Origin: Phaeocystidibacter luteus
GTDB lineage: Bacteria; Bacteroidota; Bacteroidia; Flavobacteriales; Schleiferiaceae
Direction of reading: 5' to 3'
Length of the DNA stretch: 64,000 bases
NCBI RefSeq assembly: GCF_008933115.1
Contig: NZ_WBVO01000001.1
Coordinates: 558,001 to 622,000 of the forward strand
Positions 15,964-19,269 of this stretch are shown in pieces. Below the pieces are notes generated by a model. It did not search any database and had not been told where the DNA came from. It worked only from the letters and a program-made list of their open reading frames with translations. How positions within the stretch are numbered: position 1 is the first letter of the stretch; the number at the start of each line of letters is the position of its first letter. The position numbers and the translations under genes were made by a program.

Positions 15964-16599
15964 ATGGATGGAACACTTAGCTACGCATTGCTCGTTTTCA
16001 CATCGTTCTTCACGCTGATTAACCCGTTGGGAACGATGCCGATTTTCATGACCATGACCAAAGATTTGGATGTGGCCAACCGAACGAAAACGGCTCGTAA
16101 GGCCACTATTGTAGCCTTCTTCACCATTGTAGCTTTTGCATTTAGCGGACAATTGCTCTTTAGCTTTTTTGGTATTTCGGTGAACAGTTTCAGAGTTGTT
16201 GGCGGTATTATCTTCTTCCTCATGGGCATGGACATGCTTCAAGCTAGATTGGCCAGAGTGAAGGTTCAGGATGAAGAAGTAAAGAGCTATGTAAACGACA
16301 TTTCCATCACTCCCCTAGCCATCCCTATGATTTGCGGCCCAGGTGCTATGACCAACGCCATTGTGATGATGGAAGATGCGGATACCACGATCAAAAAGGT
16401 CGCATTAATCGCAGTTATAGCAGGTGTAATGCTCCTCACCTACATCATTTTATTCTCTTCAAGTAAGATCATCAAGCTTCTTGGAGAAACGGGTAACACA
16501 GTGATGATGCGTCTGATGGGCCTCATCGTGATGGTTATTGCTGTAGAATTCTTCTTCTCCGGTTTAGGTCCAATTCTTCAAGGTATTTTCCCGCAATAG
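15964..16599 (+). CDS. MarC/UPF0056 family integral membrane protein
   Basis: The 211-residue protein has six hydrophobic helices and the MarC signatures: FTLINPLGTMPIF near the N-terminus and ITPLAIPMICGPGAMTNAI in the middle. The family was once linked to multiple antibiotic resistance, but that link has been withdrawn and the transported substrate is unknown. I start at ATG 15964, which gives the family N-terminus; an upstream in-frame ATG would run back into the spacer behind the terminator. The next gene begins one base after its stop, so the two are probably cotranscribed. Confidence 0.92.
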   Translation: MDGTLSYALLVFTSFFTLINPLGTMPIFMTMTKDLDVANRTKTARKATIVAFFTIVAFAFSGQLLFSFFGISVNSFRVVGGIIFFLMGMDMLQARLARVKVQDEEVKSYVNDISITPLAIPMICGPGAMTNAIVMMEDADTTIKKVALIAVIAGVMLLTYIILFSSSKIIKLLGETGNTVMMRLMGLIVMVIAVEFFFSGLGPILQGIFPQ

Positions 16600-16600
16600 G

Positions 16601-16987
16601 ATGTCGGGTAAAACTATAGTCACCATCGCCTTAGGACTACTGTTCGGCGTTGCTATTTTCTATAGCCTGGGCCCCAGTGATCACCCAAGTATTACAGACT
16701 GCACTGTGAATACTCACCATCTGGATTCTACGTGGCACGTTGAATCTACAGGTGACCTGTGGCTGTTCACCGACTTCAATTCCGCACCAAATGTTCGCTA
16801 TTTGGTTCACGACGCTGATAGCATGGAAATTCTAGCTATTTCTAAGGCTGAGCAAGTAGACATCTGGGAGGTCAACCACTTCTCGCTTCTTGACCCGATG
16901 GGCAGCATCAGGTATGTGGCTGGAATTGTGGAGGGAGGAGATACGGTGTACTGGAAAGTGAAAGGATTGAAAGGATCATTTGACTGA
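16601..16987 (+). CDS. Small membrane-anchored or exported protein of unknown function
   Basis: The 128-residue protein has one N-terminal hydrophobic helix (IVTIALGLLFGVAIFYSLG, about residues 5-23) and a soluble remainder rich in beta-prone segments (WHVESTGDLWLFTDF, VRYLVHDADSMEIL, VYWKVKGLKG). I recognise no family. It begins one base after marC. The last codons (AAAGGATTGAAAGGATC and onward) are already part of the downstream hairpin array: the stop TGA is the loop of the first hairpin. The C-terminus may therefore have been set by the repeat. Confidence 0.7.
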   Translation: MSGKTIVTIALGLLFGVAIFYSLGPSDHPSITDCTVNTHHLDSTWHVESTGDLWLFTDFNSAPNVRYLVHDADSMEILAISKAEQVDIWEVNHFSLLDPMGSIRYVAGIVEGGDTVYWKVKGLKGSFD

Positions 16988-17757
16988 AGTCAAATGAAAG
17001 GATTACAGCCTATCGGCTGTAAAAGGATCCGCCTATCGGCGGAAAGGATCCCCGCTTGCAGCGGGGAAAGACGTAAAGTCGAAGGTTTAGGAAGAGTATA
17101 TCTATCTGAAGAGTTTGGAATACTACCATATAGGTAGCAAGGTCCTTCCGCCGATAGCCGAATCCTTTCCACCAGCAGATGGGTCCTTTCCGTCGATAGC
17201 CTGACCCTTTCCGCCAACGGGTGGCTTCTTTCCGCCGGCAGGCGGATCCTTTAGCCTGACAACAGGAAGGCTATCCTTTTACCCGACGAAGGAGGGTAAC
17301 CCTTTTACTAGCAGTCCAATACATCTTCTCTTAGCCTCCCCTTTCCGCCGGCAGGCGGACCCTTTAGCCTGACGACAGGAAGGCTACCCTTTTACCCGAC
17401 GAAGGAGGGTAACCCTTTCAATACCAACCCAATACATCTTCTCTTAGCGTCGCCTTTCCGCCGATAGGCGGATCCTTTAGCCTGACGATAGGAAGGTTAT
17501 CCTTTTACCCGACGAAGGAGGGTGACCCTTTCATTCCAAACCAATACATCTTCGATTAGCCTCGCCTTTCCGCCGACAGGCGGACCCTTTAGCCTGACGA
17601 CAGGAAGGCTATCCTTTTACCCGACGAAGGAGGGTAACCCTTTCATTCCAAACCAATACATCTTCTTTTAGCCTCATCTTTCCGCCGGCAGGCGGATCCT
17701 TTAGCCTGACGACAGGAAGGCTACCCTTTTACCCGACGAAGGAGGGTGACCCTTTCA
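16977..17757. repeat. Array of small hairpins filling a convergent intergenic region
   Basis: From stop codon to stop codon the region is built from short perfect or near-perfect palindromes separated by AAAGGAT (left half) or its complement ATCCTTT (right half). Examples are CATTTGAC/GTCAAATG (16977-16996), TTACAGCC/GGCTGTAA (17003-17022), TCCGCC/GGCGGA (17028-17043) and CCCCGC/GCGGGG (17050-17066). In the right half come CCGCC/GGCGG beads with loops TATC, GGCA, GATA or GACA. Stem sequences differ while bead architecture and spacer stay constant. Neither strand has a credible gene. The array may be REP/MITE-like or may serve as a transcription barrier between convergent genes; no known family is recognised. 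Confidence 0.85.
17228..17754. repeat. Tandem amplification of a 112-113-bp three-hairpin unit (5 copies)
   Basis: The motif CTTTCCGCC recurs at 17228, 17341, 17454, 17566 and 17678, giving spacings of 113, 113, 112 and 112 bp. Each unit contains three palindromes (CCGCC..GGCGG, AGCCT..AGGCT, TACCC..GGGTA) and an ~35-bp tail. In copies 3 and 4 the tail (CATTCCAAACCAATACATC) resembles the 3' end of the adjacent symporter gene, and the fifth unit's tail coincides with that gene end. Confidence 0.85.
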
Positions 17758-19269
17758 TTCCAAGTCCAACACTTCCTCATTTCGCCCAAGCTCCCCAATC
17801 TTCCCAAGGCTCAACAGCCAAAGCAAGAACATCATAAATGCGCCATTGAGCAGCAGCAATTCGAAGCCAAAAGTGTAATTGAACCAACGTTCGGAGTTCT
17901 CGTACATCACATAGGCGAGTGTCGGACTGGCTATTGCGGCGATTGGGACGAGTTGATCGCGAACGGGCCGCTTATTCATGAGTCCGAAAGCATAAAGGCC
18001 GAGCAAAGGTCCATAGGTGTATGTGGCTACGCGGAACAGATCACTAATTACATTCTTAGGTGCGGTGTACTTAAACAGAATGATGACCACGAAGATGACG
18101 AGTGACATACCGATGTGCACCTTTCTTCTCAGTGCCTTCACTTCACGGTCATTCGAACTCGTATCCACTTCGAGGATGTCCACAGAGAATGAGGTTGTCA
18201 ATGAGGTAAGCGCACTATCCGCACTAGAATAAGCCGAGGCGATCAATCCGATAATGAAGAACACCGTCACCACAGCTGGTAGGCCTTCTGTCAAAGCAAT
18301 GGCAGGATACAGGTCGTCGTTCGCAGCATCGATTCCTATTTTTGCGGCGTAGTCATACAGCAGAATACCGAGCGACAGAAATAGAAGATTGACAAAAATC
18401 AACGAAATGCTAAAGCCATACATGTTCTTCTGTGCATCTTTCAGAGAGCGACAAGTAAGGTTCTTCTGCATCATGTCTTGATCCAAACCCGTCATACAAA
18501 TGGTAATGAACATACCACCGAGAAACTGCTTGAGGAAATGCTGTCCAGAAGCACCGTTAAAGAGAGAGTTCCAAAAGCCACCCTTTTCTTCTCCAAAGAA
18601 CCAAACCTGTGAATCAGGATGAGCAGAGATATAATCCACCAGAGAGGTGCCCTCAGGAATTAAGGCATCCGACAAATAGTAAACAGTAAGTCCGACTGCC
18701 AAAAGCATGAAAAGTGTCTGAAGCGTATCGGTATAGACAATCGTTTTGATGCCGCCTCTAAAGGTATAAACCCAAATCAGCAATATGGTACCAAACACCG
18801 TTGCCGCAAAAGGAACTCCAAGAGCATCGAATACCGCCAATTGCAGAACGTTCGCGACCAAGAATAGTCTGAAACTTGCGCCGACTATTCTGGAAATCAA
18901 GAAGAAAACAGCACCCGTTTTATAGGTCGAATTTCCGAACCGATCTCTCAGATACGTGTAAATCGAAGTTAGATTCAATCGGTAATACAGTGGCAGTAGA
19001 ACATGCGCAATAACCACATAGCCAGCGAAATAGCCAAGAACCATCTGCATGTATGCGAACTTGGAATCAGCCACCCATCCCGGTACGGAAATGAATGTAA
19101 CACCGCTCAAGGATGCTCCGATCATTCCGAAAGCCACCACGAACCATGGTGAGTTTCTATTTCCGGTAAAGAAAGTCTCGTTGCTGTCGTTCTTCCCAGT
19201 GATCCTTGCAATCAACAGTAGGATAGCAAAGTAGCCCAGAACGAGAAACAAAATACTCAGTGGTGACAT
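17755..19269 (-). CDS. Sodium:solute symporter (SSS family)
   Basis: The 504-residue protein is a multi-spanning SSS-family Na+ symporter of standard length, a different paralogue from the one at 6.5-8.3 kb and without its soluble insertion. Visible features are GASLSGVTFISVPGW in the first helices, the central TFRGGIKTIVYTDTLQ segment and the sodium-site helix SAYSSADSALTSL. Substrates of this subgroup (sugars, sialic acid, amino acids) cannot be told apart here. It stands alone on the minus strand. Its last codons (EEVLDLE, then TGA) sit at the edge of the tandem array, and degenerate copies of this end recur within the array. Confidence 0.92.
   Translation of the reverse strand: MSPLSILFLVLGYFAILLLIARITGKNDSNETFFTGNRNSPWFVVAFGMIGASLSGVTFISVPGWVADSKFAYMQMVLGYFAGYVVIAHVLLPLYYRLNLTSIYTYLRDRFGNSTYKTGAVFFLISRIVGASFRLFLVANVLQLAVFDALGVPFAATVFGTILLIWVYTFRGGIKTIVYTDTLQTLFMLLAVGLTVYYLSDALIPEGTSLVDYISAHPDSQVWFFGEEKGGFWNSLFNGASGQHFLKQFLGGMFITICMTGLDQDMMQKNLTCRSLKDAQKNMYGFSISLIFVNLLFLSLGILLYDYAAKIGIDAANDDLYPAIALTEGLPAVVTVFFIIGLIASAYSSADSALTSLTTSFSVDILEVDTSSNDREVKALRRKVHIGMSLVIFVVIILFKYTAPKNVISDLFRVATYTYGPLLGLYAFGLMNKRPVRDQLVPIAAIASPTLAYVMYENSERWFNYTFGFELLLLNGAFMMFLLWLLSLGKIGELGRNEEVLDLE

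Follow-up and report, generated by a model that had tools for sequence, protein, structure and literature searches.

Hairpin arrays at gene borders of Phaeocystidibacter luteus as probable expansions of a foot-tagged palindromic repeat

The 767-bp gap between two convergent genes of Phaeocystidibacter luteus (positions 16988-17754 of the window) is occupied by a chain of about 20 hairpins, linked by AAAGGAT in the left half and by its complement in the right half. The window is the whole stretch of DNA analysed, 64,000 nucleotides corresponding to C1:558001-622000 of a 3.21-Mb draft genome. The repeating element, termed here a bead, consists of a foot, AA(A)GG[AG]T, at its 5′ end and a stem in which any sequence is allowed as long as it pairs; often there is also a fixed inner core, GCCTnn(n)GGC. 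Copies are dispersed through the genome, their stems are compensated, and in most gaps the foot points to the nearer gene. Some gains and losses of beads fall precisely at AAGG feet, a unit of three beads has been amplified in tandem in the window, and the arrays are absent from the sampled stretches of two congeners. We consider it probable, by a modest measure, that a species-private, foot-tagged palindromic repeat has expanded in this intergenic gap, with new copies made as folded single-stranded DNA and tandem beads produced by slippage.

A greedy scan of the array recovered 18 perfect hairpins with stems of 5-9 bp, spanning 16976-17723, and a foot-based scan found 16 beads, four on the + strand (16970-17067) and 12 on the − strand (17231-17729), so that the hairpin array of the original prediction is real. 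AAAGGAT feet number five (16961-17043), ATCCTTT feet seven (17162-17696) and ACCCTTT feet ten (17204-17749). In the left half (16961-17067, foot strand +) the AAAGGAT feet start at 16961, 16970, 16997, 17022 and 17043, and the + strand hairpins lie at 16976-16997 (9 bp), 17003-17022 (8 bp), 17028-17043 (6 bp) and 17049-17067 (8 bp). The polarity switches in a degenerate middle part (17068-17140) without foot-based beads. It is followed on the − strand by degenerate beads with a 21/42-bp period and ATCCTTT/ACCCTTT feet (17141-17227), and then by 4.8 copies of a 112-bp unit at 91% matches (17228-17763, − strand). Each copy holds three hairpins with the stems TCCGCC/GGCGGA, TAGCCT/AGGCTA and TTACCC/GGGTAA; between the hairpins, the − strand reads AAAGGAT or AAAGGGT. 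About two dozen variable stems had been predicted; this description suits the left half and not the right, which repeats three stem types, and the variety of stems comes mostly from the left half and from other gaps of the genome. Folding, proposed as a check, likewise gave a divided answer: the left-half RNA is far more stable than its shuffles (z −6.03, equalled by 0 of 200), whereas the right-half RNA on the − strand is not (z −0.79, equalled by 5 of 20).

The left flanking gene (16601-16987, + strand) encodes 128 aa with no Pfam family, and the array begins within it, at 16961. Its last eight codons (KGLKGSFD, 16961-16984) and its stop are bead sequence, falling within the first feet and the first hairpin. 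At 16961-16987 the array thus supplies a protein gene with its final codons and stop, with KG read from AAAGGA. The predicted extent from stop codon to stop codon is correct in that the gap is filled, and incorrect at this left boundary. The right flanking gene (17755-19269, − strand) encodes a sodium:solute symporter (PF00474) whose TGA stop overlaps a foot, with AAGGGT immediately after it (TGAAAGGGT); the best 80 of its 587 relatives, at 53-62% identity, come from Flavobacteriales and other Bacteroidota. Homologues of the left gene were found in both congeners, at 39% (E 5e-25) in G001 and 29% (E 5e-10) in G002, and their tails differ beyond a common DTV. At the counterpart junction of G002 (L116 2985-3018) the two genes also converge, but there their 3′ ends overlap and no DNA separates them, and in G001 the gene order is different. 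Given this overlap and this other order, the array would have been gained after the split from the two lineages or lost in them, with two genomes being compatible with either course.

Searching the genome for further footed palindromes, as had been proposed, did return other copies. With the array as query, a DNA search found 26 places in its own genome and none in 39 relatives. The 12-mer AAAGGATCCGCC occurs at 11 exact genome sites versus 0 for the reversed pattern, and the 17-base bead AAGGATCCGCC-n4-GGCGGA, allowing up to three mismatches, at 95 sites versus 5. A foot-based scan of 0.84 Mb of the genome (the window and 40 stretches, part of them selected for containing arrays) identified 143 beads, with 32 arrays made up of two or more. 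By the gene calls of our own script, 108 of these beads are intergenic, 24 lie within called genes and 11 are unassignable. The less selected 0.63 Mb, window included, holds 74 beads (118 per Mb) versus 22 (35 per Mb) in reversed sequence, and the same scan of the sampled congener stretches gave 10 versus 10 in G001 and 8 versus 6 in G002. Clusters of at least three hairpins of any kind, not all of them beads, number 16 in the 0.84 Mb, four of them in the window, versus 1 in a shuffled control; in the congeners, 220 kb of G001 contain none and 180 kb of G002 contain one, which lies within a long open frame. A general inflation of gaps was considered and discarded: the intergenic share is 0.118 here versus 0.115 in G001 and 0.089 in G002 (sampled), with no clear enlargement of the genome.

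The AAAGGAT foot also fills other gaps with other stems, and several of these arrays have a layout of their own. At C24:10208-10984 (L075), AAGGATTCGCYTTKGGGCGAA-like beads on the − strand follow one another at 54-bp spacing for nearly 800 bp. At C22:62325-63213 (L114 12325-13213), a strong terminator-like site is followed by about six repeats of a multi-bead unit with 123-bp spacing, and the two ends of this gap carry identical first two bead types, inverted relative to each other. The gap centres in L095, L107 and L013 contain short GGTTAGA-like tandem runs, and a CCCGAATCGGCTTCGCCTCTCGGGATTCC hairpin recurs in the inner parts.

Outside the species, the 22-base bead pattern AAAGGATCCGCC-n4-GGCGGAAAGG has no exact match among 84,980 species, in a collection that may omit this genome. 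An 18-base pattern with one mismatch allowed hits 23 places here versus 1 across 87 other genomes of the family. No conserved array was found among the 39 relatives, the 87 family genomes or the sampled stretches of G001 and G002. As far as these foot and stem patterns reach, the beads appear to be private to the species.

Pairing, rather than sequence, is supported as the property kept in bead stems, as originally proposed. When intervals were picked only by their flanking AAAGGAT, ignoring pairing, a perfect terminal stem of 4 bp or more was present in 14 of 32 here versus 1 of 113 in the 39 related genomes, and folding at −6 kcal/mol or better in 23 of 32 versus 13 of 113. Across 30 of these AAAGGAT-flanked units, 63-83% of the residues pair at a given position versus 40-54% after shuffling (G-T allowed), with three or four Watson-Crick types at each position; for positions 1-6, shuffles as high numbered 0, 0, 0, 1, 4 and 11 of 2000. 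A second test used beads with a GCCTnn(n)GGC core, AAGG upstream and AAG downstream, whose arms were taken as found (103 beads, 66 of them distinct, giving 49 distinct arm pairs). Adjoining the core, the pair matches in 45 of the 49 (CG 30, TA 9, AT 4, GC 2), against a mean of 22.8 and a maximum of 32 in 5000 shuffles, none of which reach 45. The third arm pair matches in 37 of 49 (0 of 5000 shuffles); 26 of these are T-A, most of which the foot itself probably supplies. Covariation is weak at arm pairs 2, 4 and 5, where 309, 110 and 496 of 5000 shuffles equal it. Beads of this core type are absent from 400 kb of the two congeners. The types of change are illustrated by 19 hand-picked beads, a set biased towards hairpins, with 24 two-sided changes versus 7.2 in shuffles and 2-6 with the partner slid.

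The arrays also follow a rule of polarity. Each bead was oriented by its foot and the nearer called gene edge was noted. For arrays of at least two beads, the foot faces the nearer gene in 22 of 24 gaps (76 of 93 beads), a count that leaves out seven beads in called genes and those at the end of a stretch that lack one of their flanking genes. One exception in this count (L107 14885-15654) apparently has a short uncalled gene just to its right, and the count was left as is. Once single beads are added, 26 of 33 gaps agree, six disagree and one is a tie (one-sided sign test, 0.0003). Most of the 33 gaps carry one polarity only, and in all seven that hold both, the + beads stand to the left of the − beads. 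Beads near a stop obey the rule in 46 of 57 cases and those near a start in 30 of 36, and polarity is therefore not tied to the direction of transcription.

How such arrays grow may be read from the modules that they share. Among the matches listed, gaps beside different genes have modules of 200-360 bp in common at approximately 75-95% identity, in the same orientation once this is set by the foot; arrays that share modules are non-independent. Several gene edges used in this comparison (e.g. L107_4672-, L107_15018- and L109_14168+) are wrong, apparently because the gene caller missed short genes. Palindromes flanked by short direct repeats are readily lost via slippage. In pairwise comparison of nine related modules, 10 of 51 indels of at least 15 nt (7 of 40 distinct) run precisely from foot to foot, versus 0.3% for random placement, and the other 41 of 51 are without bead precision. 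These indels, together with the 112-bp tandem of the window and the bead tandems at 54-bp and 123-bp spacing (C24:10208-10984 and C22:62372-63007), are what would be expected if the arrays grew in place without a transposase: template switching across a hairpin would perfect near-palindromes and so yield compensated stems, slippage between AAGG feet would multiply beads, and gene conversion would spread modules. As a complete account we regard this as unlikely, since growth in place alone leaves unexplained why unlike stems have one foot in common, why modules of 200-360 bp stand beside different genes and why feet face the nearer gene. A still poorer candidate is that the array binds a nucleoid, gyrase or repair protein, with selection keeping the AAAGGAT linker. 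The linker is indeed the most constant part and arrays occur at many gene borders, but a protein that reads duplex AAAGGAT has no need of compensated stems and no such array was found in the other species searched, which makes this explanation very improbable.

The remaining alternative places the function in RNA, as a transcription barrier or related device in which a hairpin followed by TCCTTT stops read-through from the opposite gene, or from upstream, short of the gene edge. The foot-to-gene polarity would suit it, as would the folding of the left half (z −6.03). A transcript leaving its own gene meets hairpins followed by AAAGG instead of U, whereas for one heading towards a gene edge TCCTTT comes after each hairpin. 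The bidirectional barrier of the original prediction is accordingly weakened for a gene's own transcript and keeps some ground for an arriving one: a pattern scan of 16900-17820 found three weak terminator-like sites, where shuffles average 1.3 (sd 1.2). Two are left-half beads in right-to-left reading and the third is a right-half site in left-to-right reading; none is in the sense of the gene adjoining its half. Since the T-runs are short, reaching TTT or TTTT after CC, and the excess of sites is small, we list a barrier among the rivals instead of adopting it. Further points speak against it. In two other gaps the left gene is already followed by a strong terminator-like site (12 and 13 pairs) ahead of the array, which would then add little; the right-half RNA is no more stable than its shuffles; and the arrays are private to one species among those searched. 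Rfam 15 gave no match up to E 1 in 16500-18300, and a CsrA/Rsm sponge, considered for the AGGA in the linkers, was rejected with no CsrA gene at E 0.001. A barrier or RNA-level device is quite unlikely on this evidence, and the predicted RNA-processing array is further disfavoured by a polarity that follows the nearer gene edge and not transcription.

Among known systems, the beads most resemble REP sequences, which are likewise short palindromes in many, mostly intergenic copies. The available text of PMC3733652 describes REPs as palindromes that bear a fixed tag on one side, with stems of mainly 6-9 bp and alternative complementary residues, much as in beads; it groups them by a GTAG or CGTC tag and has some families confined to one species. 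The bead tag, AA(A)GG[AG]T (AAAGGAT/AAAGGGT), differs from GTAG/GTRG and from CGTC. Beads also form head-to-tail chains with feet towards the nearer gene, and, judged from the descriptions in that text, their stems look more varied per genome than those of REPs. The REPINs and tandem REP clusters of Pseudomonas fluorescens SBW25 (PMC3116915, as far as its available text goes) share with beads an inverted arrangement and ordered extragenic tandem clusters; there, an inverted doublet is the proposed unit and clusters adjoin RAYT genes. Here, the seven two-polarity gaps are all + left and − right, but most of the 33 gaps have one polarity. None of the three IS200-like Y1 transposase (Y1_Tnp) genes of this genome has a foot-based bead within 2.5 kb; one such gene is present in G002 and none in G001. 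With the wrong tag and with no bead beside these genes, the beads are not filed as REP/RAYT elements, though they are REP-like in behaviour.

The Y1 genes have palindromes of another kind around them. Two of the three sit amid palindromes with GCTTTAGC/GCTAAAGC cores, with 17 and 16 cores within 2.5 kb, and the nearest of four isolated beads to a Y1 gene is 2,980 bp away. The Y1 genes in L033, L034 and L257 (C11:6444, C1:16766) stand in long arrays of these palindromes, with a spacing of about 113 bp at C11. Of the 32 bead arrays, 11 have a GCTTTAGC/GCTAAAGC core within 500 bp, versus 6% of random windows, an exact 35-nt copy of a Y1-associated palindrome lies by a bead array (L113 11425-11459), and in related modules such palindromes are placed inward of the AAGG beads. 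These associations are suggestive of a link between bead arrays and the Y1-transposase palindromes, although some of the arrays have modules in common and do not count as independent. TnpA-Y1 genes of Bacteroidetes have been associated with 'atypical secondary structures' in the accessible portion of PMC6006769, and the three genes here with their palindromes recall that description; AAGG-footed beads were not found beside them. By eye, their motifs (DHIH, WQ, YVRDQ; EHVH, WQ, YVKNQ) are like those of subclass 1.2, which the same portion lists as REP-free.

Other systems match the beads in single respects. CRISPR was rejected, in line with the original prediction, for a constant part that is a 7-nt linker and variable parts that are largely self-complementary. 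Short palindromic repeats of the Volvox carteri organelle genomes (PMC2670323, from its available sections) are hairpins called selfish that fill intergenic DNA, as beads do, with frequent loop sequences and stems of variable length; those sections mention neither a constant linker nor an edge-facing polarity, which are features of the beads here. The TAACTGA heptamer of Beggiatoaceae, Cyanobacteria and five Bacteroidetes (PMC4679880) is, like the foot, a repeated intergenic heptamer of patchy occurrence; in the part of that paper available it forms direct repeats, mostly directly before start codons in the Orange Guaymas genome, with no intervening hairpins described. Two Flavobacterium genomes are included in REP surveys according to the available text of PMC12306157. 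Searches of the openly accessible literature, at the level of titles and abstract openings, brought up neither AAGG-footed beads nor an edge-facing polarity.

Of the three roles first suggested for the array, a self-propagating palindromic element fits best, given its dispersed copies, its absence from the G002 junction and the lack of finds in the other species searched. In the expansion that we favour, the bead would act at the DNA level. New copies would spread as folded single-stranded DNA, with foot and hairpin recognised as in REP/IS200-type elements, and would persist where harmless, at gene edges with feet gene-ward. Replication slippage between the AAGG feet that flank a hairpin would then add or remove whole beads. 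No host function needs to be assumed beyond the filling of gaps, and effects on transcription would be secondary. The beads are most likely selfish or neutral intergenic DNA under structural constraint.

A more specific possibility, which we put forward tentatively and consider doubtful, is a single-strand-mobile hairpin family that is read by its foot, its loop core and its pairing, with the stem left free. Such a family would grow or insert outward from gene edges with feet gene-ward, and its mirror-image chains may also stop arriving transcripts. If recognition does run through foot, loop and pairing, one lineage can carry dozens of unlike stems. Linker and loop core are constant while stems vary in matched pairs, so that foot, loop and pairing are separable and may be tested individually. 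Additionally, the edge-facing polarity offers a simple rule for any model of landing, growth or action, and one that can be counted in other genomes.
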